Source: Roseobacter sp.
GTDB taxonomy: Bacteria; Pseudomonadota; Alphaproteobacteria; Rhodobacterales; Rhodobacteraceae
Direction: 5' to 3'
Length of the DNA stretch: 64,000 bases
Assembly (NCBI GenBank): GCA_002731875.1
Contig: PCCY01000023.1
Location: forward strand, 1 to 64,000
Shown: one piece after another, positions 45,989 to 64,000 of the stretch
Position numbering within the stretch: position 1 is the first letter of the stretch
How the letters are laid out: each line of letters opens with the position of its first letter
Notes under the pieces: model-generated
The model's database searches: none
The model's input: only the letters and a program-made list of their open reading frames with translations
Told to the model about the DNA's origin: nothing
Translations under genes and position numbers: made by a program

Positions 45989-45995
45989 ATTTGTT

Positions 45996-46072
<77 letters not shown>

Positions 46073-46249
46073 GGGGTCTGCTACCTTGCATTCTTATGGG
46101 CTGCAAGATGTAGCAGCGCGATTTTTTGGAAAAGTCGCGATTATTTTTTTGTTTTCTTTTTGTTCCCCTTCCCCGACGCCGGGCAGGGAATGAAACGTAG
46201 GGTGGCATTGGATGCGTGATCATGCGACGCCCGGGACAGGGGATGACGG

Positions 46250-46894
46250 TCAGTCGTTATCTTGCCCGGCCCCCGCGCCGGCGCGGCTGGCTTCGGTTGC
46301 CGGAGCGTATGTCCGAAACGCGAAGCTTTCCAGAACGCGCAGCGTGGCGCTGTCCATTCGACGGCCCGCGAGGGTGTGGGGTGACGGGGTAAACCGGCTT
46401 TGGGTCTTGCTCAATACGGCTCGGGTTGCGTGACGTGTCATCACGGCAGCCTGGTCGGCCTCGGCGGCTACCCGGCCGTTGTTAAAGGTCAATAAGCTGC
46501 CTGCCCACTCGAGGGCGACGGTGACACCACCGGACCCGGACGCCGCAGCGACGAAGGGGGCCAGTAGCAGCGGGGCCGATATATCTTTGATGTGCAATGG
46601 GTCATCAACAGTCAAACCGTAGGCCCGGTCACTGATCATCGCACCGACGATGATTGGACAAAGCGTGCCGGATGTCGCGCTTAGAGATCCATTCGCGAAC
46701 CGAGGCACAAGCTTTGAATACGCAATACCGTCATTGGTAGCGAGCAAACCCGCCAAGAGTTGCGGGCCCGCAAACCCGTGATCACAAAGCCAGCGCACCG
46801 CTTTGCCGGTTTCTTCCGCCAGACCCCAGCTCATCCCGGCACCGCGCGCGGCTTTCCGGCTTAGTGCTTCGATCTCGTTAAGCGAATATATCAT
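46250..46894 (-). CDS. DUF3726-like protein, last gene of the BCCT cluster
   Basis: The 214-aa protein starts at ATG 46894, behind GGAG, and overlaps the stop of the preceding gene by 4 bp. The start 'MIYSLNEIEALSRKAARGAG' with 'WGLAEETGKAVRWLCDHG' matches my memory of the DUF3726 family, which is common in roseobacters and has no known function. No catalytic motif or membrane segment is visible. It is translated together with the 567-aa protein, so the two probably act as one enzyme or complex in the pathway. Confidence 0.65.
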   Translation of the reverse strand: MIYSLNEIEALSRKAARGAGMSWGLAEETGKAVRWLCDHGFAGPQLLAGLLATNDGIAYSKLVPRFANGSLSATSGTLCPIIVGAMISDRAYGLTVDDPLHIKDISAPLLLAPFVAAASGSGGVTVALEWAGSLLTFNNGRVAAEADQAAVMTRHATRAVLSKTQSRFTPSPHTLAGRRMDSATLRVLESFAFRTYAPATEASRAGAGAGQDND

Positions 46895-48594: not shown

Positions 48595-48664
48595 CACGCG
48601 CCTCCTCTTGCATGATATCACATATCTTTGCGGGCGGCCCCATTGGGACCGCACCGCGACTTTA

Positions 48665-50227
48665 TCAGGTGTTTTCACGACCCTTCGCGAGCGTGATCCT
48701 CACCGCGTCCCAAAGCGAAGGAAGCAGAACCAGCGATACCGGCACGGCGGTAACCACGATGAAGCTTTGAAGCTTGCCGACCCCACCCGCCCCGAGCGAT
48801 ATCAGGATAACCGCCATCAGGCCCATGCCAACGCCCCAGAATACTCTTACCGGCATCGAAGAACGGTCCTCGTCGGACATGGCGACCGAGATGACGTAGG
48901 TCATTGAATCGCCAGTGGTTGCCACGAAAATCGTCGTGAGGATAAGAAACAGCAGCGAAACGAGAAAGCCCAAGGGCAGCTGCTGGGTGATGGCGAGCAG
49001 GGCCGCCGGCAGGTTGAACCCTTCAAAAGCAGTTGACACAGAACCGGTGTTTCCAAGCTCGAACGCGATGCCGGACCCGCCGATGATGGTGAACCAGAAC
49101 GTGGTGATGACGGGGGCCACCAATGACAGCATGATGATGATCGACCTGATCGACCGCCCGCGCGAGATGCGCGCGATGAACATCGCCATCAGCGGGCCGT
49201 ATCCCATGAACCAACCCCAGAAGAATACTGTCCACCACCCCAGCCAACCGGGTTCGCCAAACAGTCCTGCTTCGCCGCGATACAGTGCCATGTCAAAGAA
49301 GTTTGCGATATAGCTTGTGAAGCCGGCGAAATAGCTTTTGAAGATGAACGCCGTTGGCCCCAGGACAAGCATGAACACCAACAAGCCACCAGCCAGAATG
49401 ACGTTGATCTTGCTCAAAAGCTGGATACCACGCGTCAGCCCCGACATTGCAGACAGGGTATAGAGGGTAACGAGCCCGGCAATGACGATGGCCTGGGTCG
49501 CAAAGGCATCGGGAATTCCGAACAGCGCGTTCAAGCCATAGCTGACCTGAAGCCCGAGAAAACCGATCGGTCCCACCGTTCCGGCCACCACAGCGATAAT
49601 GCAAGACGCGTCAGCGATCAGCCCGATGGGTCCCTTGATCGCACGGTCACCGAACAGCGGATAAAGCAGGGTGCGTGGCGCAAGCGGCAGACCTTTTTCA
49701 TAGTGATAATGCATCAACATGATCGTGGTCAGTGCGCCCAGAATCGCCCAAGCCAGGAAACCCCAATGCATGAAGCTTTGCGCCAACGCCGGTGCCACGG
49801 CAGCGGGAGTTCCCGCTTCGGCACCAAACAGGGGCGGAGAGGACAGGAAGTGCGCCATCGGTTCTCCGGCAGCCCAAAACACACCACCGCCCGCCAGCAG
49901 CGTGCACATGATCATCGATCCCCATTGAAATACCGAAAACTCCGGCCTTGCCATTGTCCCCATGATTGCCTTGCCGCCCGGCAGAAAGATTATCACCAGT
50001 CCGATCAGAAAGGTCGCCAACAGCAAGAGTTGCCAATACAGACCGAAATACTGGGCCGAGAAGGCAAAGCTGGTGTCCACGATCAGCGAAAGCAATTCGA
50101 GGTCAAACAGCGCGATGAGGCAGAAAATTGCAATAAATCCCCCGGTTATTGCAAACAGTGGTTTGTTGATGTGCCCGGGGCGCGGGCTTTGTGCCGCTAC
50201 CGTCGGATTGTGGGTCTGGTACGTCAT
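48665..50227 (-). CDS. BCCT family (betaine/carnitine/choline) transporter
   Basis: The 520-aa protein has about 12 membrane helices and belongs to the BCCT family of sodium- or proton-coupled carriers for quaternary ammonium compounds. The key block is 'WWTVFFWGWFMGYGPLMAMF' followed by 'IARISRGRSIRSII'; canonical BCCTs have 'W..FYWAWW..W.PFVG.FIARISRGR'. The altered tryptophan box suggests a substrate different from glycine betaine. There is no long cytoplasmic C-terminal extension of the osmosensing kind, so it is likely a catabolic importer. A GGAGG site precedes ATG 50227. It follows the M19 gene by 42 bp. Confidence 0.88.
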   Translation of the reverse strand: MTYQTHNPTVAAQSPRPGHINKPLFAITGGFIAIFCLIALFDLELLSLIVDTSFAFSAQYFGLYWQLLLLATFLIGLVIIFLPGGKAIMGTMARPEFSVFQWGSMIMCTLLAGGGVFWAAGEPMAHFLSSPPLFGAEAGTPAAVAPALAQSFMHWGFLAWAILGALTTIMLMHYHYEKGLPLAPRTLLYPLFGDRAIKGPIGLIADASCIIAVVAGTVGPIGFLGLQVSYGLNALFGIPDAFATQAIVIAGLVTLYTLSAMSGLTRGIQLLSKINVILAGGLLVFMLVLGPTAFIFKSYFAGFTSYIANFFDMALYRGEAGLFGEPGWLGWWTVFFWGWFMGYGPLMAMFIARISRGRSIRSIIIMLSLVAPVITTFWFTIIGGSGIAFELGNTGSVSTAFEGFNLPAALLAITQQLPLGFLVSLLFLILTTIFVATTGDSMTYVISVAMSDEDRSSMPVRVFWGVGMGLMAVILISLGAGGVGKLQSFIVVTAVPVSLVLLPSLWDAVRITLAKGRENT

Positions 50228-50269
50228 TCCAACCTCCCTGAAGGAATATCCAATAATGTATCGGGTGGC

Positions 50270-51277
50270 CTATTCAGCCGCTCGAGCTTCCCGCACCTCC
50301 CGCGCGGGACCAAAGCTGGCGTCGAAGAAACGCAGCCAGTTTTCTCCCATGATGCCGGCCACTTCGGCTGCATCAAATCCTACTGACCGCAACCCTGCCT
50401 CGACGTTGGAGAAGTCGCGGTTATCCGTGAACCAGGTGGGCATATCGGGAAAGCCAGGCGCAGCGGCCGAGCCTTCGCCATAGTCAACCTTTTTCGTCCA
50501 GCGTCCCATACGCATCCAGTCGACGACACTGTCGGGGTGGTCCTGGCACAGGTCCGATCCGATCCCAAGCACCTCTGGCCCGACCATTTCAGCGGTTTGT
50601 GCGACCATTTCGCAAAAGCTTTGCAATGTGCAGTCCGACTTGCCCTTCAGGTGGTGCGGATACAGTGAAAAGCCCAACATTCCGCCGGTTTCGGCCAGCG
50701 CCCGGATCACGTCATCGGGTTTGTTACGCCTTGCCGGTACCCAAAACGCCGGATTGGCATGGGTGATGGCTATGGGGCGGGCGGAATGTTCAATCGCCTC
50801 CAGAGTCGACCGATCTGCCGAATGGCTCATGTCCACCACCAGGCCCACGCGGTTCATTTCGTCGATGACCTCGCGGCCCATGCGGGTCAGGCCCGGATCT
50901 TGAGCCTCGTAGCATCCTGTCGCCAGAAGCGACTGATTGTTGTAGCTGAGTTGCATGAAGCGGGCGCCCAGCGTGTGCACAATTTCGACCAGGCCGATGT
51001 CATCTTCGATGGGCGAGGGGTTTTGGAAGCCAAAGAAGATCGCAGTGCGCCCTTCGGTTTTGGCACGCCGCACGTCCGCACCGATGCGACCTTGGAATAT
51101 AAGCTCTGGAAACTGTTCGAACCAACGGTTCCACTGTTCGATATTCTGCACAGTCTCACGAAAATTCTCATGATAGGCGATGGTGACGTGCACCGCGTCC
51201 ACGCCGCCTTCGCGCATTTGGCGAAAGATCTTTTCAGACCAGTTGGCGTACTGGAGGCAATCAATACGGTGCGTCAC
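50270..51277 (-). CDS. M19 (membrane dipeptidase) family hydrolase with altered metal site
   Basis: The 335-aa protein starts at GTG 51277, which overlaps the aldehyde dehydrogenase stop (GTGA) and has GGAGG upstream. The barrel of renal-dipeptidase-type enzymes is clear: 'GLTRMGREVIDEMNRVGLVV', 'DMSHSADRS' and 'ITHANPAF' keep two metal-binding His. However, the N-terminal H-x-D is replaced by 'HRIDCLQYANW', and the bridging Glu block reads 'FFGFQNPSPIED' with Gln in place of Glu. So it probably does not hydrolyse ordinary dipeptides. Its neighbours suggest it acts on the compound imported by the BCCT carrier. Confidence 0.8.
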   Translation of the reverse strand: MTHRIDCLQYANWSEKIFRQMREGGVDAVHVTIAYHENFRETVQNIEQWNRWFEQFPELIFQGRIGADVRRAKTEGRTAIFFGFQNPSPIEDDIGLVEIVHTLGARFMQLSYNNQSLLATGCYEAQDPGLTRMGREVIDEMNRVGLVVDMSHSADRSTLEAIEHSARPIAITHANPAFWVPARRNKPDDVIRALAETGGMLGFSLYPHHLKGKSDCTLQSFCEMVAQTAEMVGPEVLGIGSDLCQDHPDSVVDWMRMGRWTKKVDYGEGSAAAPGFPDMPTWFTDNRDFSNVEAGLRSVGFDAAEVAGIMGENWLRFFDASFGPAREVREARAAE

Positions 51278-52743
51278 GCCAGATCCTCCGGGGTTCCGGC
51301 CGCGATATAGGCGGTCTTTACAGTGGTGTAGAATTCGGCGGCATAGCTGCCCTGTTCGCGAGGCCCGTATGACGAATTTCCACGCCCACCGAAGGGCACG
51401 TGATAGTCTGTGCCTGCGGTTGGAAGATTGACCATCACGCAACCGGTGCGGGCGTTGCGGCGGAAATGTGTAGCCCTTGCGAGTGATCGGGTGACAATGC
51501 CTGACGTTAATCCGAACTCGGTGTCGTTGACCACCTCGAGCGCTTCAGCATAGCTGTCCACCTTGATCACACATGCGATCGGGGCGAACATTTCCTCGCG
51601 GTTGATCGTCATGTCATTACTGGTGCCGGTGAACACGGCGGGGGACATGTAATAGCCTTCGGTGCCCAGGCTCAGGCGCTCACCGCCGCACTGCAACGTT
51701 GCCCCTTCGGATTTGCCTTTTTCAATATAGTCAAGATTGGCGTTGAGCTGCTCCTCGCTCACCACCGGGCCAAGCTGTGTTCCCTCGGCCAAGGCATGCC
51801 CGACCTTCATCGCCTTGGCCCCTTTCACCAGCTTTTCAACGAATTCATCATGGACGGCCTTGTGCACAACCAACCGCGATGATGCCGTGCATTTTTGTCC
51901 TGTACCGCCAAATGCGCCGCCAAGAGCCAGACTGACGGCCAGATCGATATCGGCATCGTCCATCACGGCAAGCGCGTTCTTGGACCCCATTTCCATCTGG
52001 ATCTTGGTGAAATTCTGCACGGCGGCGGCAGCGATGCCGCGTCCTACCGGAACCGACCCGGTGAATGAGATCGCGTCAAGCCGTGGGCTTTCGACCAGCT
52101 TCTGGCCGATCTCCCGCCCGGCACCCATGACCAGATTGAACAAGCCCGCAGGCATGTCCTGTCGCGCGATGATCTCGGTCAGGGCAACTGCCGACGCGGG
52201 GGTCAGGTTTGCTGGTTTCCAGATTACCGCATTACCAAAGGCCAATGCGGGGGCGATCTTCCAGCTTGCCGTCGCCGTGGGGAAGTTCCACGGGCTGATC
52301 ACGGCAACCACACCGACCGGTTCACGGCGGACGTCGATTTCGACACCGGCCCGGACACTATCGGCGGTATCACCGATCTGGCGCAGACATTCGGCAGCAT
52401 AATAGGTAAAGAACTGGCCCGCGCGAAAGACTTCACCCTTGCCCTCGGCCACGGGCTTGCCCTCTTCACGCGACAGCAGCTGCCCCAGTTCCGACGCCCG
52501 TTCCATCATCTCGCGACCGATCGCCATCAGGACGTCATGGCGTCGTTCGGGACCATATCCGGCCCATATTACCTGGGCTGCACGCGCGGCGGACAGCGCA
52601 TCGTCAAGCTGGTCTGCACTGGCCTGCGCATACCGACCGACAATCTCCGACAGGTCTGATGGGTTACGGTTTTCGATCTCGCCTGAACCGGCAACCCAAG
52701 CGCCCGCGATGAAATTGCGATTGAGGTCGGTCATGGCGTTCAT
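51274..52743 (-). CDS. aldehyde dehydrogenase, KGSADH/YcbD-like
   Basis: The 489-aa enzyme is an NAD(P)-dependent aldehyde dehydrogenase. The catalytic Cys is in 'FGGTGQKCTASSRL', the general-base Glu in 'IQMEMGSKNALAVMDDAD', and cofactor contacts in 'ISPWNFPTATASWKIAPALA' and 'ISFTGSVPVGRGIA'. The C-terminal 'NLPTAGTDYHVPFGG' and 'SYGPREQGSYAAEFYT' blocks resemble alpha-ketoglutarate-semialdehyde dehydrogenases. It likely oxidises an aldehyde released during substrate breakdown. ATG 52743 has AGGAG upstream. It is the first structural gene after the LysR gene. Confidence 0.88.
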   Translation of the reverse strand: MNAMTDLNRNFIAGAWVAGSGEIENRNPSDLSEIVGRYAQASADQLDDALSAARAAQVIWAGYGPERRHDVLMAIGREMMERASELGQLLSREEGKPVAEGKGEVFRAGQFFTYYAAECLRQIGDTADSVRAGVEIDVRREPVGVVAVISPWNFPTATASWKIAPALAFGNAVIWKPANLTPASAVALTEIIARQDMPAGLFNLVMGAGREIGQKLVESPRLDAISFTGSVPVGRGIAAAAVQNFTKIQMEMGSKNALAVMDDADIDLAVSLALGGAFGGTGQKCTASSRLVVHKAVHDEFVEKLVKGAKAMKVGHALAEGTQLGPVVSEEQLNANLDYIEKGKSEGATLQCGGERLSLGTEGYYMSPAVFTGTSNDMTINREEMFAPIACVIKVDSYAEALEVVNDTEFGLTSGIVTRSLARATHFRRNARTGCVMVNLPTAGTDYHVPFGGRGNSSYGPREQGSYAAEFYTTVKTAYIAAGTPEDLA

Positions 52744-52839
52744 GTGGTGTCTCCTGTCAGGGGTGAAATTCCGAAAGTCGTCGAAGACAGTAGACGCCAG
52801 CGAGGTACTTCAATCAAACTAGATTTATTTGATTTTAGT

Positions 52840-53739
52840 TCAGTTTATTTGAAGTTGTGCCGCATCCCGCAAATCGGCTGTTTGCGATTCAAGAACCCTC
52901 AAGAAAGCGCGCGCCGCCGGAGGTAAGAGCCGTCGGGGCTGGGAAACCAGATAAAGTTCTCGCCGTGCATCACTTTCGCCGAGGGGCAAAAACACCAGCC
53001 CCGCATCATCAAGAGGTACAGCGCGGCGGGGAAGCAGGGTCAGGCCGACGCCGGCGCGCACCAACGCTAGCAACGACGCGGTATTGGGCACAGACATCTG
53101 CGCACTGTCGAGTATTGGCGCGAATGCCGCGTCGTCAATCAACCGGCACAACCCGTTGGCAATGAAGTCCCGACCGGCAAGCTGGCCCCAGACGACCGGG
53201 TTTTTAAGGGTAGCTAACGGATCGTCGATCGCACAGACCACGCCGAAAGGGTCTGAAAACAGCAGCTTACGTTCAAAGCCGGGGCCTGCGGTGATGCTCG
53301 CCAACCCGATATCGGCGCGCTCGGCCTCCAGCTCTCGCTGGACCGATGCGCTGTCCATGTCGCGCATGTCGATACGGACCATCGGATGATCGCGGCGAAA
53401 GTGGCGGATCACCCCGGGAAGAATTGCCGTCGCCACCGATGGCGTCACCGCCAGTCTGACCTGTCCCTGTTCGGCACGTGATAGACCTTCGATTGCCGCG
53501 ACCGTGCGACCGAAATGCTCTATCTCGCGCCGGGCCTCGTTGTAAATCATGTCTCCCAACGGGGTCATACGCGACTTGCGCGCGGTCTCGAACAGGGCGG
53601 CACCGATGTGTTCCTCGAACTGCTTCAGCATCATCGACACCGCCGAAGGCGTTCGCCCAAGTTGGTCGGCGGCCTCGTTCAGGCTGCCGTGTTGCACCAC
53701 GGCGCAGAAACATCGGAGCATTTCGATCTTGATAGCCAA
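52840..53739 (-). CDS. LysR family transcriptional regulator of the BCCT cluster
   Basis: The 299-aa protein has an N-terminal helix-turn-helix ('SLNEAADQLGRTPSAVSMML') and a LysR substrate-binding domain. The frame begins at TTG 53739, which gives the usual 'IKIEMLRCFCAVV' start; ATG 53721 is an alternative. It lies 96 bp before the aldehyde dehydrogenase gene on the same strand and divergent from ridA, so it can control both sides. The TTTATTTGA motif occurs twice at the boundary with the dehydrogenase gene. Confidence 0.88.
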   Translation of the reverse strand: MAIKIEMLRCFCAVVQHGSLNEAADQLGRTPSAVSMMLKQFEEHIGAALFETARKSRMTPLGDMIYNEARREIEHFGRTVAAIEGLSRAEQGQVRLAVTPSVATAILPGVIRHFRRDHPMVRIDMRDMDSASVQRELEAERADIGLASITAGPGFERKLLFSDPFGVVCAIDDPLATLKNPVVWGQLAGRDFIANGLCRLIDDAAFAPILDSAQMSVPNTASLLALVRAGVGLTLLPRRAVPLDDAGLVFLPLGESDARRELYLVSQPRRLLPPAARAFLRVLESQTADLRDAAQLQIN

Positions 53740-53741
53740 AA

Positions 53742-53756
53742 TTCAGCAATCCTGAA
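53742..53756. promoter_or_regulatory. LysR operator candidate, TTCAG-N5-CTGAA
   Basis: A perfect inverted repeat lies 2 bp before the LysR start and 84 bp before the ridA start, in the 100-bp divergent space. The size is right for a LysR-type recognition site. A weaker TTCAAG follows a few bases on and might be the second half of an activation site. Confidence 0.5.
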
Positions 53757-53839
53757 GTAGATTTCAAGTATTACATTTTGCCTTAATCCCTGGCCGCTGT
53801 CTACAAGACGCTCAAAGAACATCACCCAAGGAATATCCC

Positions 53840-54196
53840 ATGAACGCTACCCTCACGAAAATCGGCGGCTCGGCCCGTTTTTCCACTATTGCGATCCACA
53901 ACGGCCAGGTTCATTTGGCCGGTCAGGTTTCGCAGATAAAGGACGGTGATATCACGGCTCAGTCACGTGATGTATTTGAAAAGATCGACGCGCTTCTGGG
54001 TGAAGCAGGGACCACCCGCGAAAATCTGATCTCGGTGCAGATATGGCTTGCCGACATGGATGACTATGCCGAGATGAACGCGGTTTGGGACGCATGGGTT
54101 TCGTCGGTAACGCCTCCTACACGGGTCTGTGTCGAGGTGCGGATGGCGCAACCTCATTACCGGATAGAAGCCTTGGCCATCGCAGCAACGATTTAG
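53840..54196 (+). CDS. RidA family protein (enamine/imine deaminase-like)
   Basis: The 118-aa protein belongs to the RidA/YjgF family, which hydrolyses reactive enamines and imines. The fold is recognisable in 'GQVHLAGQVSQIKDGDITAQ', 'LISVQIWLADMDDYAEMNAV' and 'SVTPPTRVCVEVRMAQPHY', which keeps the conserved Arg in the ligand pocket. It belongs to the RidA-like subgroup ending 'YRIEALAIAA'. Divergence from the LysR gene ties it to the cluster and suggests that an imine arises in the pathway. An AAGGAA site precedes ATG 53840. Confidence 0.88.
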   Translation: MNATLTKIGGSARFSTIAIHNGQVHLAGQVSQIKDGDITAQSRDVFEKIDALLGEAGTTRENLISVQIWLADMDDYAEMNAVWDAWVSSVTPPTRVCVEVRMAQPHYRIEALAIAATI

Positions 54197-54293
54197 GGCG
54201 CGACCACTTAGACGGGGCTGGGGGCACCCCTGGCCCGCGTCTGCACCGCAAAGATTCCGCATGGCAGGTCAGGACGCATTAAGCTCGCGTTGT

Positions 54294-55304
54294 CTAAAAC
54301 GGTGCTTCTGATCGTCGATGAATGTCGATGCCACTTTGCCACAGGACGATCAGCCCGATACCCACAACCAACATGATTGTCATGATATAGTTGAACAGGA
54401 TCATCAGCAGTGCCGCTTCGGGCGGTACGCCCAGCATCTGAAGGGCAAATCCCGCCCCGAAGATAAAGCTGCCCGGTATGCGAACGAACCGGCCCAGCAC
54501 CATGATGAAGCCCGAGAAGACCATCAGAAAAATATAGTCCCAAGGGGCCAACACGACGCCTACAGCCAGACCTGCCCAGACGAAATGGGTGGCGGCGACC
54601 AGCTTGGCGGCGATCGCAGCGATAAATACCGCAATTCGCCTGACGGCTTGGCGCGGCCAGACCACGCCATCACAAAGCGCGGCGCGTAACGCAGAACCAT
54701 TCGCCCGCAACCGCGCTGCCAACCAGTCAAAAAGCCGACAAATCGCGGGACCGTCAGCCGCGAAAAACGTACGGAACCTGAACATTGCCCAAAGCAAGCC
54801 CCCGAATAATGCGATGTTCAGTGCACCGGCGATACTCAGGCCAAGCTCCAGGTTGCCTTCTACTTGCGGCACTTTCCCGGCCAATGCCAGCACGCCTGCA
54901 AACAGCGCAAAAACCACCCCGTCGACAAACCGAGATATAATGGTGGTTGTAAGGACGGTAGGCATTTTCAATCGCTCAAGCCGCGCGATGATCCATGCCC
55001 GTATCAAGGGGCTGATGCCAAGTGGCACCAGCACATTTGCCCCATATCCGGCAAGCAATGCCCCGGTCAGCTTGATGGTCCCGACCGGCTTGACATCATG
55101 CAAGATCTGACGCCATTTCCATCCGTTGAGAAGTTGTTCCAGCAGGATGGTCGTGATCAACACTGCGATCCAAACCGGATCGGCAGACCTCAGCCCGTTC
55201 AGGAACTTTGCGAAGTCCAGGCTACCGTAAAGCAAGAAGGTCAAAAACAGTGCCAGTGCCGCGCCGAACACTGGCACTCCCCAGCGGAGGAACATTCTTT
55301 TCAC
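54294..55304 (-). CDS. lysylphosphatidylglycerol synthase/UPF0104-type flippase-like membrane protein
   Basis: From GTG 55304, which has AGGAG five bases upstream, the protein has 336 aa and about eight helices; an earlier ATG (55334) lacks a good site. It matches the membrane half of MprF-like or YbhN proteins: 'EQLLNGWKWRQILHDV', 'GALLAGYGANVLVPLGISP' and 'ARLERLKMPTVLTTTIISRF' contain the usual 'SRF.D' block. Such proteins move lipids or lipid-linked sugars across the membrane. No catalytic partner gene is adjacent. Confidence 0.8.
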   Translation of the reverse strand: MKRMFLRWGVPVFGAALALFLTFLLYGSLDFAKFLNGLRSADPVWIAVLITTILLEQLLNGWKWRQILHDVKPVGTIKLTGALLAGYGANVLVPLGISPLIRAWIIARLERLKMPTVLTTTIISRFVDGVVFALFAGVLALAGKVPQVEGNLELGLSIAGALNIALFGGLLWAMFRFRTFFAADGPAICRLFDWLAARLRANGSALRAALCDGVVWPRQAVRRIAVFIAAIAAKLVAATHFVWAGLAVGVVLAPWDYIFLMVFSGFIMVLGRFVRIPGSFIFGAGFALQMLGVPPEAALLMILFNYIMTIMLVVGIGLIVLWQSGIDIHRRSEAPF

Positions 55305-55874
55305 GTTTTCTCCTGCCTCATGGACACATTTCATCGGCGCTCAGCGTGGTCAGTAGACGAATCCAATTGGATTGTCGCGGTGTTACGCCGCCCGCTCTCA
55401 GACATGTGTTGCGACGAACAAAATATACGGTCCGGGCTGAACCGACGGGACCTTGCCACAGGATGCCGTACTGATCAGCGGTCTGATCCGTAAGTTACAG
55501 GCGGATGATATTGAGAGCAGGGAGAGCCGCGCCCGGCGATGCATCGCCCCGCCCCAGATGCGCCATCCAGCGCAAACAGACCTCTGCGCATGTGCCTCGA
55601 AATTTGTTCGCTGTCTCACTCCGGCCGACGGATCTGGCTGCTTTGGAGCGTATCGATCAAGGTCGGGATAACCTCTGCAGCCTTCTGCTTGCCACCGACC
55701 GGGGGACGCCGATTGCGTCATCTTTCTTCTTTCGCGTCGTGATGGTACCCATGCGGGTCTCGTTTCGGAAGTTTGTTTCAGATATCCGGTAAATCGAACT
55801 GTTGCGCAGGACGCCGGCGGATTTTTGTCATGGGTTCTTTCTTTCGTAACGCGACCCTGCGGCGGGCCCGAACA
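55305..55874. other. intergenic region without a recognised gene
   Basis: About 570 bp. Frames on both strands are open for 70-160 codons, but they are arginine- and serine-rich and show no recognisable protein, as is usual for high-GC non-coding DNA. It probably includes the promoter of the flippase-like gene. Confidence 0.35.
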
Positions 55875-55918
55875 ATGGTGCAACAATTTGACCTAGGTGC
55901 AACATTGTGTTGCACCAT
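55875..55918. promoter_or_regulatory. triple GGTGCAACA repeat upstream of dusA
   Basis: ATGGTGCAACA (55,875-55,885) and its exact inverse TGTTGCACCAT (55,908-55,918) form an 11-bp inverted repeat. A third copy, AGGTGCAACA, lies at 55,895-55,904 and pairs with the inverse across just three bases. Ordered, closely spaced copies suggest a binding site for a dimeric regulator in the leader of dusA. The protein is unknown. Confidence 0.5.
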
Positions 55919-56008
55919 CCCGAAAAATGGGGGCAAAAGGCCTCAAAAAGGGGAAAGAAGGAAAAGATGGCTGAGCGGGAAACACTAAGAAACCAAGGGA
56001 GATCGGAC

Positions 56009-56068
56009 GTGACGCGCGCTGCGCGGCTTTCCGTGGCACCCATGATGGATTGGACCTACAGTTTATAA
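56009..56068 (+). pseudogene. dusA: dusA 5' fragment with left attachment site
   Basis: GTG 56009, with GGGAG seven bases upstream, opens a frame 'TRAARLSVAPMMDWT', the start of tRNA-dihydrouridine synthase DusA. The native protein continues 'DRHCR' to about 330 aa, but here the frame turns to 'YSL' and stops at 56,066. The break follows 'ATGATGGATTGGACC' (56,042-56,056). The 5' end of dusA, at exactly this block, is a known integration target of tyrosine integrases. I read 56,030-56,056 as attL. A rebuilt dusA should lie at the far end of the island, outside this window. Confidence 0.75.
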
Positions 56069-56609
56069 GTTGCTGATTCTAATTAATAAATATTCCGTCT
56101 TTTGTCTAATAGCAATTGAGTAGCAACTGTGCTCAACATCAACGGTCCTAAAAAGCGCCAGCCTCCTACCGCAATTTCTAAGGAGTTCCCAGAAGTTGCG
56201 CAGCCTCGCACCGCCTGAGGACAAGCACCCGCCGGGAACCGCATCATCGAACAGGTCGGCTCCGCAATGAGCCTGACCGTAGGTTCAAGCTCGAACTGGA
56301 TGCTAACTGTCACAGACACCGAGCGTCGTTGGCGCAGTTTGCTTCCTCAGTTTATGCCAGTCATGATCACATGACCTGACGATCCTGAAGTGCGCCGCAG
56401 CGGGTCATCTACTTCGCCAGTGCGCATCCATATGGCAGATAAACCTTATTAAATTGCCCGCACCTGACTGGGACGGAACCAACCATGATACTCCCGCATC
56501 CAACATGTAAATCCAAACGCAGCATGATAACGAAAAATAGCAATCTATCCTATCGGTTGATGTGGCTTTATGTGATATTTTGGCAATAATGCGTAAAAGG
56601 ACATAGTAG
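56069..56609. other. AT-rich island edge without a recognised gene
   Basis: About 540 bp just inside the left attachment site. No frame is convincing. Ends of integrated islands often hold recombinase arm sites; I could not pick out clear direct repeats of that kind here. Confidence 0.35.
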
Positions 56610-56801
56610 ATGCAAACGTTTGAAATTATTTTGTCATTAGCAGCAGTTAGTTTCGCCGGTTTAGTCCATTGGTTGGTGCATCATATAGTAAAGACCAGTG
56701 GACGCGATCGTCCCCGTGACTCCGCGCGCGTTCAAAAATTAGTGGATCGTGTAAATCAGTACAGCGAAGGCCTTCCTGAACTACCTATAAAACCTCATTG
56801 A
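56610..56801 (+). CDS. small single-span membrane protein, unknown
   Basis: The 63-aa frame starts at ATG 56610, behind AAAGGA. One membrane segment covers residues 5-27 ('EIILSLAAVSFAGLVHWLVH'), followed by a basic tail ('TSGRDRPRDSARVQKLV'). Codon use is AT-rich, like the surrounding island DNA. I do not recognise it. A good start site and clean layout favour a real small gene. Confidence 0.5.
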   Translation: MQTFEIILSLAAVSFAGLVHWLVHHIVKTSGRDRPRDSARVQKLVDRVNQYSEGLPELPIKPH

Positions 56802-57012
56802 GTATTACACGGAATAAGCGGGAACAGACGGTCCCGCGGTTGAAATCGGAACCCGCTTATCCACGAGAAAAAGCAGCGGATTACGCAAGGCGCTGACATG
56901 GCTTAGCTTTTCCGCCATCTCGCCGCATTTTGCGCGATTTTTCAGGTTTCTTCTTCGCCGAACGCCCGCCGGGCCAATATTGCTCGGTTGGCGAAACGAG
57001 CGGAGAGCCTTG

Positions 57013-58037
57013 ATGATCACCGAACTGAAGTCGATCCCTGACATCTGAAGCGGATGCCGAGCGAGATGCACGCGCGACGCTTCCTGGAGGGTATCATATG
57101 GTCGACCGGCAGACACTGTCCGCATTGCGGCTCGGTGGCCTCGTCGCCGCTGCGCGGAAGGACCTGCCGACCGGGCCTTTACCAATGCCGGGACTGCCGT
57201 CTTCAGTTCACGGTTACCACGCTCACCCCGCTGCATGGCACCAAGCTCGACCTGCGTATCTGGATCTGCGCGATGTTCCTTGTGCTTACATCGAGCAAGA
57301 GCATCTCCTCGTTCGTGATGGCACGGCTGCTCGGTGTGAACCAGAAGACCGCGTGGAAGATGGGACACGCCATCAGGGAAATGATGGACGACCGGATCGC
57401 CGAGCTGCTGCCGCTGGAGGACATCGTCGAGGTGGACGAGGCGTATGTCGGGGGATCTCCGAAATCTCTGTCAGGAGCCTATAATCCGCGCGGTAAGGGC
57501 ACTGGAAAGCCGATGATCTTCGTGGCGGCCTCACGCGACGGACAGGCGCGTGCCAGGGTCGTTTCGGATGACAAGAGGGCCACGCTCAAGCCGGTTCTGC
57601 TGGAATGGATCGACCCCAAGAGGACGCGCCTGATGACCGATGGAAGCAAGAGCTATCGGGGCTTGGGAAAGACCATGGCCGACCACCAGTATGTGATCCA
57701 CAGCAAGAAAGAGTATGCCAACCCGGAGACCGGCGCTCACGTGAACACTGCCGAAGCGGTCATCTCCCAGGTGCAGCGCGCTCTGGTTGGGGTCTACCAC
57801 AACCTCGGCCGTCAGCACCTCCAGCGATACCTCGACGAGATCATCTGGCGGCGGAACCATCGCGACCCTGTCCGGGAAGTGGTCAAGCAATGGACCACGA
57901 AAGCCGGTGTCGAGCGAGAGAAATCGACGACGATCTGGAAGCCGATCCCGGTGGTCGACCAGATGCGCGTCTTGCTTCAGGGGGCTGTCGGTAAGCAGCT
58001 GCGGCGCTCGAAGGAATACGGGCTATGCTGGCCTTGA
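57013..58037 (+). pseudogene. IS1595 family transposase with an early 1-nt frameshift
   Basis: From ATG 57054 the open frame gives 327 aa. It has a zinc ribbon ('RHCPHCGS', 'LYQCRDCRLQFTVTT'), then the ISXO2-like DDE domain with 'DIVEVDEAYVGGSPKSL', 'RTRLMTDGSKSYRGLGK', and 'NTAEAVISQVQRALVGVYHN'. The true start is probably ATG 57013: 'MITELKSIPDI' is followed by TGA, and restoring one C near 57,043 would read on as 'LKRMPSEMHARRF'. So a single-base deletion separates the first dozen codons. Re-initiation at 57054 would lose only 14 residues, so activity is not excluded. I could not fix the terminal inverted repeats. Confidence 0.75.
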
Positions 58038-58158
58038 TGCCAGACCTATGCGCTTGTGGCACAGATAAGCGTTTCGAAGACTCGAAGTGCAATCTCGGCT
58101 TCGAGCCCTTCCACGACATTGGCTCTGGTCCGTCGTGAAAGGGTGCCTTCGGGCTTTG

Positions 58159-59229
58159 TCAGCTGGAAATCTCTATCCCGATCTTGCCCATATGAGACTT
58201 TTCAAGGAAGACCTCCTGGGCGGCGCGCAACTGGTGCAGCGGGTAACACTCAGCTACTACCGGACGTATCTCACCCGCCTCAATGTAGCCCACCAAGTCA
58301 GCGAAGACGCTTGGGTCCTGTCGGGTGCTTCCGACAAGTGTCAGGTCTTTCAGGTATAGAGTTCGCAGGTCGAGCTCGACGATCGGCCCAGCGATGGCGC
58401 CCGAGGTCACGTAGCGGCCTTTCGGCACCAGCGCATCCAATAATACGGGCCAACGCGGCCCGCCAACCAAGTCGAGCGCTACGTCAAAGGCGTCCTCGGG
58501 GACCGGCTCGTTGCGATCAATCGTGATGTCGGCCCCAAGCTCTTTGAGCGCCTCCATCTTTGCGGTGCTGGTGATCGCTGTGACATGCGCGCCGCGGCGT
58601 TTGGCGAGCTGCACAGCGGCTGAGCCGACACCGCCCGATGCCCCCGTGATCAGCACCCGCTCCGCGCCCAAGATCGCGCGTTGGATCATTCCCTCGGCGG
58701 TCGAGAACGCGCATGGAAAGGACGCGAGCTCGATATCCGATAGCGCGCTGTCGATCTTCAGGGCATGCTCGGACTCGACGGCCGTGAATTCTGCAAAGGC
58801 ACCATCACGCTCGGAGCCGAAGGTCACGAGGGCATCTTGCTCTGCACCATTTGGGCGATGCATCGGTCGCACCAGAACCCGTTCGCCAACGCGAGCGCTG
58901 TCCACGCCCTCACCAACCGCGACGATCCTGCCGCAGCAATCGGCGCCCTGGATACGCGGGAAACTCAGCGCTCCGGACCACGCGCCGTCGGCATCTGATG
59001 CGCCGCCATATCCTTCTGTCGCCGCCGAGTTCGTATCGCCCCGCACGGACTTGGAATACCACCCAGTCCGGGTGTTCACGTCGGTATTGTTTACTGAGGA
59101 GGCACCGACGCGGATCAGGACCTCTCCCGCGTCCGGCTGAGGAAGCGGCACATCCTCGCGCCATTCCAGCTTGTCGAGCCCCCCATGTCCGGTAAGGACA
59201 ACGGCTTTCATTGTTGCAGGCAGTGTCAT
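58159..59229 (-). CDS. zinc-independent alcohol dehydrogenase / quinone oxidoreductase (MDR family)
   Basis: The 356-aa protein is a medium-chain reductase of the quinone-oxidoreductase type. The GroES-like domain includes 'VLIRVGASSVNNTDVNTRTG'. The NADPH-binding motif is 'VLITGASGGVGSAAVQLAKR', followed by 'GAHVTAITS'. The Cys/His set for structural zinc is absent. A long insertion around 'YGGASDADGAWSGALSFPRI' is typical of one subgroup. It likely reduces a toxic quinone or enone. It is divergent from a TetR-type gene with two operators between, which predicts induction by its substrate. Confidence 0.88.
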   Translation of the reverse strand: MTLPATMKAVVLTGHGGLDKLEWREDVPLPQPDAGEVLIRVGASSVNNTDVNTRTGWYSKSVRGDTNSAATEGYGGASDADGAWSGALSFPRIQGADCCGRIVAVGEGVDSARVGERVLVRPMHRPNGAEQDALVTFGSERDGAFAEFTAVESEHALKIDSALSDIELASFPCAFSTAEGMIQRAILGAERVLITGASGGVGSAAVQLAKRRGAHVTAITSTAKMEALKELGADITIDRNEPVPEDAFDVALDLVGGPRWPVLLDALVPKGRYVTSGAIAGPIVELDLRTLYLKDLTLVGSTRQDPSVFADLVGYIEAGEIRPVVAECYPLHQLRAAQEVFLEKSHMGKIGIEISS

Positions 59230-59245
59230 CGAAGCATGCTCCAGT

Positions 59246-59289
59246 GTAGAATGATTGTTCTACTTGCGTAGGTAGAGAGATCATTCTAC
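59246..59289. promoter_or_regulatory. twin TetR operators, GTAGAA-N6-TTCTAC
   Basis: Site 1, GTAGAA-TGATTG-TTCTAC (59,246-59,263), is perfectly symmetric. Site 2, GTAGAG-AGATCA-TTCTAC (59,272-59,289), has one mismatch. Centres are 26 bp apart. They fill most of the 70-bp space between the reductase gene and the TetR gene, so one regulator probably silences both promoters. Confidence 0.8.
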
Positions 59290-59299
59290 ATCGTCAACC

Positions 59300-59824
59300 A
59301 TGGCAGACATGATGAGCAAAATATCCTCCGGGCTCGAGCGAGCCTTCGCCGCACGCGGTTTCGCGGAGCCCTCCGTCGAGGATTTGAGAGATGCCGCCGG
59401 CGTGAGCCTGCGCACGCTTTACAAATACACCCCCTCTCGGGCCGACATGGTTCTGGCGGCGCTGGAGAACCGGCATCAGCGCTACCTCTCGCATATCTTC
59501 GATGGCCTGCCGGTCGGCACCAAAGAAGCGACCGACACCATTATCGCGAGAGTCGGCACCTGGATGGCGACCGAAACGTCGCATGGCTGTCTGTTTCACG
59601 CCGCCGTGGCGGCTGACCCCAACAGCGAACCACTCCGACGGCTTCTCGAGCGTCACAAGGCGGAGGTCGCGTCTAAAGCGGCAGCGGCAACCGGCCTCGC
59701 TGCGGCCGAGACCGAACTGCTCGTGATCATCGAGGGTCTGACCCAGGCGTGGCCGTTGCGCGGCGATGCAGCCGTCGAGGCCGCCAAGCGATTGGGTTGC
59801 GCGCTCAGGGCTGCGGTCGGATAG
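59300..59824 (+). CDS. TetR/AcrR family repressor
   Basis: The 174-aa protein has an N-terminal helix-turn-helix ('GFAEPSVEDLRDAAGVSLRT', then 'LYKYTPSRADMVLAAL') and a helical ligand domain. It is shorter at the N-terminus than most TetR proteins but complete in the DNA-binding helices. It lies divergent from the quinone oxidoreductase with paired operators, and is almost surely its repressor. The ATG at 59300 has a poor ribosome binding site; ATG 59312 is an alternative. Confidence 0.88.
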   Translation: MADMMSKISSGLERAFAARGFAEPSVEDLRDAAGVSLRTLYKYTPSRADMVLAALENRHQRYLSHIFDGLPVGTKEATDTIIARVGTWMATETSHGCLFHAAVAADPNSEPLRRLLERHKAEVASKAAAATGLAAAETELLVIIEGLTQAWPLRGDAAVEAAKRLGCALRAAVG

Positions 59825-60292
59825 CTATCACCGGATGGGTTCGAGCAGTTTTAGCGCCCACGTGGAATGAAGCTCGAATACCGGTGATTTGGCTCCAGAC
59901 AGCGACGTTGAACGCATTGCATTGTCCGCATGACTGACTTTCATGACAGATGGGTTGGGTGCTGATGCTTTCTTTGGTGGATAAGCGGGAATCGGAATTA
60001 CCAAAGGATCGGCAATGGCTGGTGCCACGCCCGACTGATGCAGGGTCAAGTTGCCAGCACCCTTCGGGCCGATAAATAGAATAACTTCCAGGTTCGTCCA
60101 TCGGTTCGTGTGTTCGTGCGGACGATGTTCCCGAAAGCCTCCGGTCCGACGGCTTTGCCGATGGTACGCAGGTCCGCGAAGAACGCTTCTTTTTCGGGCC
60201 CCGGATTGGACATTATCATCAGGAAGCCCCTCGACCAAACTGCTTTCCTTTGCAATCATGGTGGTAAATTGTTCAAAGGACTATTCACTACA
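59825..60292. other. region with unrecognised minus-strand frames
   Basis: A minus-strand frame (60,046-60,255) gives 69 aa including 'EKEAFFADLRTIGKAVG' and 'NTRTDGRTWKLFYLSA', which reads like protein, and another minus frame continues towards 59,828. They may be one decayed gene with a frameshift near 60,050. I do not recognise it and do not call it a gene. Confidence 0.3.
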
Positions 60293-60835
60293 ATGAAGCA
60301 GGAAAGTATCGACAATTTTGCCATCTTGGATTTCGAAGCTTCGAGTCTCTCAGGTGATAGCTGGCCGATTGAGATAGGCCTCTCTTGGATTGACGGGGGC
60401 GCAGTTCAGACGTGGAGTTCGCTAATCTGCCCAGCAACGGGGTGGGATCTTGCTGACTGGTCGCCCCAGAGCGCTGCAGTCCACAATATTTTGTTTTCGA
60501 ACCTGATGCTCGCCCCCTCAGTGGCCAATGTGATGCAAGCATTTTTGAAAGCTCTGGGTGCTCGATGTCTTGTTTCGGACGCTCCTGAATTCGAAACGCG
60601 CTGGCTCATTAAGCTGTTTCGGGCAGATGGCAGTGAAGAGATACCGCCAGTTGCAGACTATCATGAAATCTCATCCAAACTGTATTCGGGCTACGCCTTG
60701 GATATGCTTTATGAAGCACTGGAACGCCGCGCTGCTCCGCACCGTGCCGGCCCAGACAGCGCACGGCTTGCAAACGGCTGGCTAAAAGCTGCCAAGCATC
60801 AAGATTCAACAGAGCAGAAGGGTATGATCTCATGA
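60293..60835 (+). CDS. DEDDh exonuclease-like protein (RNase T/DnaQ superfamily)
   Basis: The 180-aa protein has the exonuclease layout: 'FAILDFEASSLSGDSWPIEI' supplies the D-x-E pair, 'CLVSDAPEFETRWL' the second Asp, and 'HRAGPDSARLANGWL' the His and last Asp. So the DEDDh site looks complete. It is shorter than DnaQ and most like small stand-alone 3'-5' exonucleases. I chose ATG 60293, with AAGGA twelve bases upstream; the frame stays open to 60110 without a better start. As an island gene it may act in DNA processing or defence, but the target is unknown. Confidence 0.75.
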   Translation: MKQESIDNFAILDFEASSLSGDSWPIEIGLSWIDGGAVQTWSSLICPATGWDLADWSPQSAAVHNILFSNLMLAPSVANVMQAFLKALGARCLVSDAPEFETRWLIKLFRADGSEEIPPVADYHEISSKLYSGYALDMLYEALERRAAPHRAGPDSARLANGWLKAAKHQDSTEQKGMIS

Positions 60836-61176
60836 TCATAATTTCATCATATGATTGCTTTGGACTTGTCGCGCTTTCGTGTCGAACTGGTGTTCGTTTA
60901 AGTCACTTAAAGTTAGAAGGTGACTGGGATTTTCCAATCCAACGCTGAATGTTACCGGCCTCTATCGATGTCTGTGGATACTTCGTCACCTCGTTTTCTT
61001 AATGGATAAGGTGAACCAGAAATTACCTACTATTCAAATCCTCAAATTTGCCAGGTTGGTGATGATATCAGGTAATAACAAATCGATTTGTTCGCCATTC
61101 ACAGTGAATGGTGCAACACATGTTACATGCGTCAACATGTTGGAGTATGCCGCCGTCCTCATTCGCCGGTTGAAAA
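60836..61176. other. AT-rich intergenic region
   Basis: About 340 bp between the exonuclease gene and the recombination operon. A 62-codon plus-strand frame from 61002 is open but overlaps the end of the minus-strand gene, and I doubt that it is real. Confidence 0.35.
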
Positions 61177-62127
61177 TCATCCATGCTTAAGCCTGCCTTC
61201 GTAAATGGTCGGGTCATCAACGTAGGAGAGCAACACTTGCCTCACGCGCTGAATATACCCACGCCAACTTCCTGATTTTATCGGTTGCACGCACTTGGCT
61301 GTATCGTGTTGCAGCTTGCCTGCGTAGATCAGTGCCATAATGTCGTCAGGGCTCTGCGCAGTCAGATTATGATGCCTGATTGTGCGCCACACCCTCTCAA
61401 GACCATTGCAGGTTGGTCGGTCGCTGGCATCGGCGACTTCTTGCAACCAATCCGGCAAAATGACCTCGCATTGCTGCTGCAAGAGGGTCGCTGGCAGAGC
61501 CAGATCCCTGCGCAGCAAGCCTGCATGTTGAATCAGCTGCCGCCCTGAGAGCCGGACCAGATAATGATAAATCTGGCGCTCCTGTGTTTCGTCTTCTGCA
61601 GGGACCGCAGCCAGCTGTCGCGCGATCCAGCAGTTGTCGATATCGATCGGATTCAACCCATCGCGCTCGGCGCGCCGCTGCACTGATCCGACCATTTTGC
61701 CGTCTATCCGAACCTCTGCATCAGCGAGGACACGCAGCGCAGACCAAGGATCGATATCAGGTCGAAACAGGCCGATGGCGCGTTTTAGTATTGAGACAAG
61801 TTGCATGTGAACGTTCCGAGGATTGCCCGGGATTCTGTCTCGGATATCGGGCGGGATATCACCCCATTCGTCAGGCAAAAGAGATCCAAAGGATGTGACC
61901 GGGTGGTCCAAGCCACCAAGTATTCGAGACAGCATTCTGAAATGAACTGTTCGATGTGGCCAATCCGCCAGACTTGGTTTCCCGTCTTTGGCAGCGTCTT
62001 CCAGCGCGTCTTCCAAGTCTTGAAGTGTGATGACGATCCGGTGCTGCTCTGGATCTATTTTGATGGTGTCTCTTTGATAGGAGTGTGGGGCCAAATCAAT
62101 AACGTGCGGTAACTCGTTCATGGTCAC
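61177..62127 (-). CDS. third protein of a recombinase operon, unknown family
   Basis: The 316-aa protein starts at GTG 62127, which overlaps the preceding stop (GTGA); ATG 62121 is an alternative. It is soluble and helical, with no catalytic signature that I can see. Recognisable stretches are 'LEDALEDAAKDGKPSLADWP' near residue 40, 'GLLRRDLALPATLLQQQCEV' near 205 and 'RGYIQRVRQVLLSYVDDPTI' near the end. Strict overlap with two recombinase-like genes indicates an accessory DNA-binding or control subunit. It recalls three-gene recombinase sets such as Tn554 tnpABC and RIT elements, but I cannot show homology. Confidence 0.6.
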   Translation of the reverse strand: MTMNELPHVIDLAPHSYQRDTIKIDPEQHRIVITLQDLEDALEDAAKDGKPSLADWPHRTVHFRMLSRILGGLDHPVTSFGSLLPDEWGDIPPDIRDRIPGNPRNVHMQLVSILKRAIGLFRPDIDPWSALRVLADAEVRIDGKMVGSVQRRAERDGLNPIDIDNCWIARQLAAVPAEDETQERQIYHYLVRLSGRQLIQHAGLLRRDLALPATLLQQQCEVILPDWLQEVADASDRPTCNGLERVWRTIRHHNLTAQSPDDIMALIYAGKLQHDTAKCVQPIKSGSWRGYIQRVRQVLLSYVDDPTIYEGRLKHG

Positions 62128-63584
62128 AGCAGATCCTCTATGTCATCTGTGGCAAAGTCATTCGCACGGTCAGAAAACGCATCTGCGGCCACGTCAGCGG
62201 AAATCTTTCTGGCGTGATCGTCACGGTATTTTTGAAAGCTGCGATTGCCTCGGTGGCCCATAGCGGTTTTGCCATAGTCCAGGCCCGGCTCTCCCAGATC
62301 GGCAAGAAAGGTTTGCAACAATGTGCGCGCCAAATGACTTGAGGATCCAATCGCATCATCCCAAGTCCGTCCGAACCAACCATATGCGACAGGGTCGCCC
62401 TCATAGCGTAAAAAAATTGGCCGGCGTTGCGTCATAGCTTGATCGCGGAACTGCGGCAGGTATCGAGGGTCGTTGTCACCCAGCAATAATGCGTTGAAGA
62501 AGATGTTGAAACTGGGCTGGAAATTGACGTTCAGCATCTTTTCAACCTTTGATTGAGTGTATTTGAAAGAATAGCTGTTCGTATCTGCGTGGTAGAAAAC
62601 GCCCTTTCCCCAGAAAATGCGATCGACGACATCACGCGCGCGCGGTGGGCAGGCGACCGTGATGCCGCGAGCGCAGGCTTTCAGACGTCGCTGGTGGCGG
62701 TGGGCGACATTGGAGGTGGCATTGGCCTCTTCGAGCTGAATGCGTGCTGTGGCCAGTGTGACAGGCAGTGTGGGGGCACGAAGAGCAGTGAACATTTTCA
62801 TTGGTGTTTGCCTGCTCTCGAGCCCTGTGAAGCCTCGGTAATTCCGATCGAATCTTTCCATGGTGGGATGAGATGCCCCATGGTGGGTCGCAAAACGACG
62901 CAACTCTTCAGCAGTGCTACGTAGATAAGCCCATCTCGGCTGTGCTTCGGCCGGGTCTTCACCGTTCTCGATGGCCTTTGCTGTGGAGCGGTCGATCAGG
63001 TCATCGTAAAGTGCGCATTCGGCTTCAGCGCTCTCAATATCTATCGGCATTCCTGATTGGTCCGCCGACCAAGCGAACATGCCAAGGCGTCGTTCCATAC
63101 GGTCATTGATGGATAGGGCATAGGTCTGATCGCGTCGCAATTTGCGTAAGGTTTGTTGCCAATCCAGTGGCAGTTCACCGACGGGGATGGAGACCGTGCG
63201 TCGATAAGTGCGGCGTATACCGTGGTTATGGGTCCGGTAAGACGAGCGATGCTGGAACTCTTCACCGGCGGCCGTAGTGGCTTCGATGAGTGCCTGGCTA
63301 AACCCCAGAGCCTGTAAGGCTCGTTTTAGAGCTTCAATTTGTGTGAGCCCATCGAGCTGCCAGATTTCGACGGCCATGGGGTCTGCAGGCTTGGAGGGGA
63401 TTGCCAAGGACAAGAAAGCCCGGATGTCCGCTACTGCCGGTGCCATGATGCGGTGATGCGCGCAAAACCCTATAAACGGTTCCAGCGCCTCAAGTTCGGT
63501 CGCGGTGGCATTCGCAATGCCTGGCAAAAGGGCAACGCCCCTCATGTGTGGCGCGCGGAGGATGGCTTGGATGCGAGACGTCAT
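62124..63584 (-). CDS. tyrosine-recombinase-like protein
   Basis: The protein has 486 aa from ATG 63584, which has AAGGA upstream and overlaps the preceding stop by 4 bp; an earlier GTG (63611) is possible. The last 80 residues show the second half of a tyrosine-recombinase site: 'SSHLARTLLQTFLADLG' (H-x-x-R box) and 'MGHRGNRSFQKYRDDHARKI' (G-H then Tyr). The long N-terminal part is helical and could hold an arm- or core-binding domain. It is the middle gene of three. Target and orientation specificity cannot be read from the sequence. Confidence 0.65.
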   Translation of the reverse strand: MTSRIQAILRAPHMRGVALLPGIANATATELEALEPFIGFCAHHRIMAPAVADIRAFLSLAIPSKPADPMAVEIWQLDGLTQIEALKRALQALGFSQALIEATTAAGEEFQHRSSYRTHNHGIRRTYRRTVSIPVGELPLDWQQTLRKLRRDQTYALSINDRMERRLGMFAWSADQSGMPIDIESAEAECALYDDLIDRSTAKAIENGEDPAEAQPRWAYLRSTAEELRRFATHHGASHPTMERFDRNYRGFTGLESRQTPMKMFTALRAPTLPVTLATARIQLEEANATSNVAHRHQRRLKACARGITVACPPRARDVVDRIFWGKGVFYHADTNSYSFKYTQSKVEKMLNVNFQPSFNIFFNALLLGDNDPRYLPQFRDQAMTQRRPIFLRYEGDPVAYGWFGRTWDDAIGSSSHLARTLLQTFLADLGEPGLDYGKTAMGHRGNRSFQKYRDDHARKISADVAADAFSDRANDFATDDIEDLL

Positions 63585-64000
63585 TTCTTGTTCCTTTTCC
63601 GTATCGTGCACTCCGCTGCGGAAGCAGCTTCTGCCATCGCGTCTTGTGCAATCTTGGCGCTGCTATCGGGATCAAGGAACGCGTAGCGCTTGCTGCAAAC
63701 TGCCTCGGAGTTGGCAAGCATATCGGCAATGTTCCGCATGGATTCTCCCATACGGACCAGAATACTGGCGAACCCGTGGCGGAAGCGGTGGAAGGTCATA
63801 GGCACACCTGCATCATTGGCCGCCGACTGAAACCACTGGCGAAAAGTTGATGGATGAAGGCGCCCGCCGGGCACCCGGATTGACGGAAAGAGGTAGATGC
63901 TTTCGTTCTTTGGATCGATCAGCGGCCGGATCGATTTGAGATACCAGTCCAATACCGCTGGACCCTGGCGATTCACACGAGGGGTCATCTCCGGGATCTT
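63581..64000 (-). CDS. tyrosine recombinase/phage integrase, N-terminus outside window
   Basis: The frame is open through the right edge, so only the C-terminal 139 residues are seen. 'TFHRFRHGFASILVRMGESM' gives the H-x-x-R box, and 'NIADMLANSEAVCSKRYAFL' the region that ends in the catalytic Tyr. The usual G-H of that second box is replaced by A-N. The stop overlaps the next start by 4 bp. It is the first gene of the recombination operon and a candidate for the enzyme that placed the island, though its subfamily cannot be judged from this part. Confidence 0.8.
   Translation of the reverse strand, partial: KIPEMTPRVNRQGPAVLDWYLKSIRPLIDPKNESIYLFPSIRVPGGRLHPSTFRQWFQSAANDAGVPMTFHRFRHGFASILVRMGESMRNIADMLANSEAVCSKRYAFLDPDSSAKIAQDAMAEAASAAECTIRKRNKK

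Follow-up and report, generated by a model that had tools for sequence, protein, structure and literature searches.

The window analysed here, positions 1 to 64,000 of contig PCCY01000023.1 (C23) of a Roseobacter sp. draft genome, contains near its right-hand end the beginning of a dusA gene that breaks off early, and the locus raises the question of what displaced this start and where it came from. Window and contig coordinates are identical. With great confidence, we regard the interruption as a genomic island of the dusA-associated integrase (DAI) class, which supplied dusA with a new start, carries a PrtN-type protein most likely linked to excision together with candidate defence and probable mercury-resistance cargo, and displaced a start that had itself probably come from an earlier DAI island. 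Relatives' genomes are given G labels and relatives' loci L labels (L037 is Litoreibacter arenae and L038 Thalassovita taeanensis).

A sequence-only reading of the window had proposed that an island is integrated into the 5′ end of dusA, breaking it at a core block, and that only the left junction lies in the window. Extension of the analysis beyond position 64,000 bore this out and located both junctions, through the following features.

55967..56068, plus strand: truncated dusA reading frame, by translation 30 dusA codons, 3 further codons and a stop
56036..56055, plus strand: left core (attL), GCACCCATGATGGATTGGAC, an exact 20-bp repeat whose right copy lies at C23:111019-111038
56056..64000, continuing to C23:111018, strand not assigned: left part of the 54,983-bp dusA island

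The dusA codons break off at the core, which closes with GGAC and is followed by C at the left copy and A at the right. On both strands of C23:1-114500 there is no other core site with fewer than five mismatches, and there are two with five. The two core copies stand 54,983 bp apart. The GC content of the island (0.543) is lower than that of its left (0.576) and right (0.581) flanks. A full-length dusA is found at C23:111007-111957 (TIGR00742 model, 412.4 bits, cut-off 397.2), whereas a paralogue on contig C4 scores 86.6 bits, below this cut-off. Since this gene and a second core were found, the remainder of dusA does lie to the right, about 55 kb away. When the left flank is fused in silico with the rest of dusA on the right, the DusA frame is continuous. 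In the presence of the island it is also open and of normal length, because the new start of the island is joined to the dusA body, and its N-terminus now reads MSLNSNVELAARLSI; the old start remains at the far, left end.

The number of dusA codons left behind had been put at 16. An in-frame run does extend over 16 codons from GTG 56009 to ACC 56054-56056, followed by TAC AGT TTA TAA, but this GTG is internal to a frame that opens at ATG 55967 (peptide MAERETLRNQGRSDVTRAARLSVAPMMDWTYSL). As an ATG stands at the same place in the aligned sequences of G040 and G005, we infer that ATG 55967 is the displaced dusA start and that 30 codons remain.

The same truncation is not fixed in relatives lacking an island: dusA is uninterrupted from the core onward in all 29 relatives' loci compared. 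G040 carries a 5′ end of this type fused straight to dusA, and the alignment with it continues past the junction (1,987 columns, 71%; L030). Another displaced start (G005 C126:2550) and a core-like site (G011 C17:25526), each five mismatches from the core, are near integrases or integrase fragments and not in island-free loci. That the arrangement is an assembly artefact might be suggested by the state of the genome, a 4.13-Mb draft in 38 contigs; however, the single 150,453-bp contig C23 spans both junctions, the same right-end module stands beside dusA in L036 and L038, and L037 also has this module, which leaves such an artefact a negligible chance.

The DNA to the right of the core had been described as island DNA with an insertion sequence, cargo and recombinases. 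These genes are real, but the likely integrase of the island is outside the window, at the right end.

C23:109001-109393: prtN-type gene adjoining the integrase gene (PF11112, E 4e-15; PHROG excisionase family)
C23:109407-110717, divergent from dusA: dusA-associated integrase, 436 amino acids (PF00589, E 3e-18)

The open frame of the integrase starts within the core, at 111026, but the resulting 539-residue product was rejected as the integrase protein. Over its first 104 codons it differs from L036 and L037 evenly at all three codon positions (13/18/21 and 18/23/21), whereas a third-position bias is seen in the rest of the frame (62/50/138 and 84/52/147). For this reason, and because the 5′ part overlaps the core, the start was placed at 110717; dusA is read divergently from 110974, and the integrase thus adjoins its 5′ end. 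The protein is homologous to known DAIs and has the catalytic residues R291, K316, H375, R378, H401 and Y410, of which R291 and K316 are invariant in 13 aligned integrases and the later ones are not (the C-terminal part of the G044 sequence is lost). Nine named records hold integrases 65-78% identical to it, including records from Litoreibacter, Thalassovita, Sulfitobacter and Pseudooceanicola. These are marine bacteria of the Rhodobacteraceae type. Among 11 integrase-matching loci, the dusA body adjoins the integrase in nine (L036, L038, L040-L046), prtN follows it in eight (L036-L038, L040-L044), and both are present in seven (L036, L038, L040-L044); L037 has the first 28 dusA codons only, and L039 has neither dusA body nor prtN in its 6.5-kb stretch. 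A tblastn search with the 539-residue frame matched 102 of 50,697 phage records, all below 60% identity and none over more than 80% of the frame; the integrase of phage DC1 is 33.0% identical over 351 residues and that of mEp460 34.1% over 328, both phages having been named as DAI carriers (PMC4482086).

Two further observations concern this end. In L037, the right core at about position 4970 is followed by DNA without a dusA match, perhaps a second island in tandem. Three near-copies of AACCCACGGAA lie between integrase and core (C23:110898, 110908 and 110955), and the stretch that holds the first two is well conserved among eight related loci; all three are possible binding sites for the integrase or PrtN.

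The recombinases inside the window form part of a module of four genes (p242, R656, R495 and R316; 61177-66404) encoding a small protein, a tyrosine recombinase, a protein of Cre-like predicted fold and a protein of no known family.

61177..62127, minus strand: R316, without Pfam, NCBIfam or PHROG match
62124..63611, minus strand: R495, predicted Cre-like fold, overlapping the R656 gene
63581..64000, minus strand (whole gene C23:63581-65551): C-terminal part of R656, tyrosine recombinase (PF00589)

These recombinases (61177-65551) lie near the left junction, and R656 has a conserved catalytic set (R482, K514, H588, R591 and Y623, invariant in 10 of 10 aligned sequences), so that they might be taken for the enzymes that integrated the island into dusA. 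A DAI-family integrase directly adjoins dusA at the right end, however, and no dusA, DAI-like match or prtN was found in R656-type stretches of 10 relatives (7.9-12.5 kb each, chosen from the better matches). The window recombinases were therefore rejected as the dusA integrase, a role we consider very improbable for them. In the same stretches the R656-type gene is present in all 10, an adjacent R495 in eight, a p242-like gene in seven and an R316-related gene in one (G175). R495 is linked to recombinases by its predicted fold only: the AlphaFold model (pLDDT 78.6, pTM 0.47) has Cre as its best Foldseek match (E 5e-5, TM 0.31-0.49). No catalytic set is recognisable in an alignment of nine R495 sequences, profile comparison with R656 and with PDB sequences gave no match, and the model had no match below 0.001 in a viral library. 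For p242, no family match was obtained in Pfam or PHROGs.

Two reports describe modules of similar plan: GInt islands have a ginABCD operon at their 5′ end, with three products of recombinase type and a fourth that is small (PMC5385486), and strand-biased circularizing elements (SE) have an intA-tfp-intB-srap operon that encodes two catalytic recombinases (PMC10214605). The likeness is one of plan, a catalytic tyrosine recombinase beside a recombinase-fold protein without catalytic set. In the present module one catalytic recombinase and the Cre-fold R495 were recognised, with R316 and p242 unassigned; the SE report gives no tfp-srap or ginC-ginD blocks in Alphaproteobacteria (PMC10214605). 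The module is recurrent in the family and is not assigned to a known recombinase-module class.

The island itself is a complete, ordinary member of a published class, whose mechanism is well supported. DAI islands have 21-bp semiconserved att repeats, an island-derived dusA start, prtN in 60 of 94 cases and a typical size of 30-60 kb (PMC4482086). The present island resembles them in integrase family, place at the dusA 5′ end, repeats (here 20 bp and exact), new start, prtN, size class and the carriage of heavy-metal and restriction cargo; it differs in its other cargo, in the decayed older DAI layer at its left and in the second, unrelated recombinase module inside it. Vibrio dusA elements such as IMEVchUSA3 are described as requiring the PrtN homologue RdfN for excision, and one tandem pair at dusA, IEVpaBan1a and 1b, is mentioned there (PMC8409611). 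The mobilisation genes of such elements were not recognised among the 46 of 79 listed island frames covered by our Pfam scan. By analogy with the published class, the 436-residue DAI would act as a single tyrosine recombinase on a circular attP and the core in dusA codons 24-30. Integration would have left the displaced start on the left and fused island DNA, with its new start, to the dusA body, which is the arrangement seen at the two junctions; the PrtN-type protein, as in the Vibrio system, would most likely direct excision.

For the displaced 5′ end, comparison with relatives points to an older layer, of which two pieces remain.

55720..55752, minus strand: remnant of an older dusA integrase gene (int_A), of which the 11 initial codons, MGTITTRKKKD, are kept and the rest has decayed
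55877..56035, plus strand: upstream region of type A with 5′ dusA codons, now displaced

The type-A region matches G005 (C126:2391-2559, 78.8% over 170 bp), G040 (76.6% over 184 bp) and G011 (76.0% over 179 bp), and more weakly G021 (73%) and G034 (71%). Next to it stands a DAI of a type different from that of the present integrase (the one in G040 is about 30% identical to it): an open frame in G040, in G021 and in the A layer of G005 (388 codons in G040 and G005), and a broken one in G011 and G034. The int_A relic is identical at 9 of 11 positions to the N-terminus of the G040 integrase (tblastn over 1.6 kb with composition correction off, E 0.002), and 47 bp of DNA near it match, at 85%, the G011 sequence next to the broken integrase start there (E 1e-7). 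No other part of int_A was found in C23:1-114500. Because the type-A region borders DAIs in relatives and the 11-codon relic is present here, the displaced start was probably once the right-hand end of another, older DAI island that has since lost its body. The dusA start would thus have been replaced at least twice. An intact older island in the left flank was considered but found no support: only the int_A start was found, and 45995-54206 is common to the window and G005 at 88% identity.

It could be argued that the left start is the ancestral host start, its likeness to G005, G040, G011, G021 and G034 reflecting vertical inheritance, given that all belong to one genus and that, among 30 DusA bodies compared, none is nearer than that of G005 (93%). 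Yet in these genomes the region borders an open or broken DAI and in the window a relic; moreover, G040 and G011 share the type-A region although their DusA bodies reach just 75-76% identity to the present one, whereas G027, G013, G045, G012, G047 and G049, with DusA 85-87% identical, are outside that upstream cluster. Vertical inheritance is thus unlikely, and origin in an earlier island is preferred.

G005 has the same A layer, followed by an apparently different 12-kb island whose integrase adjoins dusA; the boundary of layer A is there read from context, as its core is altered after ATGA. The dusA upstream region of the present island is common to G035 (85% over 204 bp), which has integrase fragments only. 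The G011 locus (L101-L102, C17:1580-33000) has several integrase fragments on the left side of dusA, and one shares 79-81% identity with the integrase of the present island.

Integrases and their remains at dusA were then counted across the genus. From 58 genomes, 55 usable dusA starts were obtained (G017 is partial; G032 and G050 have the paralogue only), and up to 1.5 kb upstream of each (less in G006 and G016) was scanned with a profile of ten integrases from the same genomes. A DAI match (E <0.01) was found upstream of 18 of the 55, always on the strand opposite to dusA. Half of these are long open frames (G000, G005, G013, G018, G019, G021, G027, G038 and G040) and half are broken or cut (G002, G011, G014, G016, G020, G034, G035, G043 and G044). 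Nine of the 18 are profile seeds, which match by construction (G000, G005, G013, G018, G019, G027, G038, G040 and G044), and the scan itself found the other nine. In the control, none of 2,463 reversed fragments matched at E <1, and the sole sense-strand match was G028 at 0.16. The profile missed the 11-codon relic of the window.

Several points weigh against this account. The evidence for the older layer consists of 170-184 bp at 71-79% identity and an 11-codon relic, shared ancestry of the upstream DNA keeps some probability as an alternative, and the core search of C23:1-114500 found neither a left end nor a second core of the older island. In the survey, 37 of the 55 dusA starts had no DAI match, although relics as short as that of the window would escape it. 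A sigma-70 promoter scan of the new dusA upstream region gave one weak site, within the shuffle range. Transfer-family Pfam matches in the scanned frames were limited to TrwB_AAD_bind on a HerA-like helicase (24.0 bits, cut-off 20.5), which we read as kinship of ATPases.

The cargo is named by family matches, and the functions given are those that the families suggest.

57054..58037, plus strand: IS1595-family transposase (PF12762, E 4e-37; PF12760, E 5e-11)
58159..59229, minus strand: zinc-type alcohol dehydrogenase-like protein (PF00107, PF08240)
59300..59824, plus strand: TetR-family regulator, divergent from the dehydrogenase (PF00440, E 1e-6)
60110..60835, plus strand: possible 3′-5′ exonuclease-like protein, weak match (NCBIfam, E 6e-4, far below cut-off)
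C23:66723-68039: SIR2
C23:68036-69844: HerA-like helicase, paired with SIR2
C23:70874-72379: Mu/IS21-like transposase
C23:73774-74922: SAVED/HNH effector, CBASS-type pair with the cyclase
C23:75646-77016: oligonucleotide cyclase of that pair
C23:77997-78779: IrrE-type peptidase
C23:78873-79961: PAS/HWE kinase
C23:81608-82588: ParB-like protein
C23:83925-86301: IS21-type pair
C23:88721-89791: DRT5 reverse transcriptase, matched from profile position 130 of 484 (496.8 bits, cut-off 550)
C23:90750-93467: MmeI-type IIG restriction enzyme
C23:93464-94780: PDC-S26 protein, next to the MmeI-type enzyme
C23:95765-97810: helicase
C23:97800-98987: T5orf172/MUG113 protein
C23:101160-101639: MerR-family regulator
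C23:103106-104599: flavoprotein, candidate mercuric reductase
C23:104587-105321: MerB
C23:105378-106736: second flavoprotein, candidate mercuric reductase

Proteins 35-39% similar to the product of 60110..60835 are present in L036-L038. Genes that may act in phage defence cluster in C23:66723-94780: SIR2 with HerA, the cyclase and its SAVED/HNH effector, DRT5, and the MmeI-type enzyme together with PDC-S26. The DRT5 frame opens only 56 codons upstream of the match (C23:88553-89791), and some of the N-terminal coding sequence appears to be absent. The island also has a probable mercury-resistance block. In L037 and L038, from two other genera, the right end (107059-111038) matches at 82-83% and is followed, within 80 bases, by a segment matching 97.7-100.28 kb (91%); the 6.8-kb block C23:100280-107058, with the mercury genes, is missing there, having been either gained in this island or lost in those two.

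Host genes left of dusA differ among relatives, and the G005 contig stops 1.2 kb past its match.

45996-46072, minus strand: tRNA-Met gene
54294-55334: LPG_synthase_TM-type membrane protein (PF03706), lying between the chromosomal stretch common to G005, which reaches 54206, and the relic of the older island

The latter protein is matched at other places in some relatives, and genes downstream of dusA (C23:113378-114277) are found inverted, upstream of dusA, in G012, G049 and G047.

With an integrase or its wreck upstream of 18 of the 55 dusA genes, such islands may repeatedly alter the beginning of a core gene together with its control region. On balance we favour, with some reserve, the view that in this genus mobile islands repeatedly donate the dusA upstream region and N-terminus, which are kept after the island decays, so that dusA starts would form a layered record; the window genome and its nearest sampled relative would share layer A, beneath a younger layer B here and C in G005. 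The accessible portions of the literature on dusA islands contain no account that we could find of dusA starts left behind by decayed islands. The cargo, for example the variably present mercury block, shows how the dusA site gathers genes, and the starts suggest that islands of this class may leave lasting marks at dusA.

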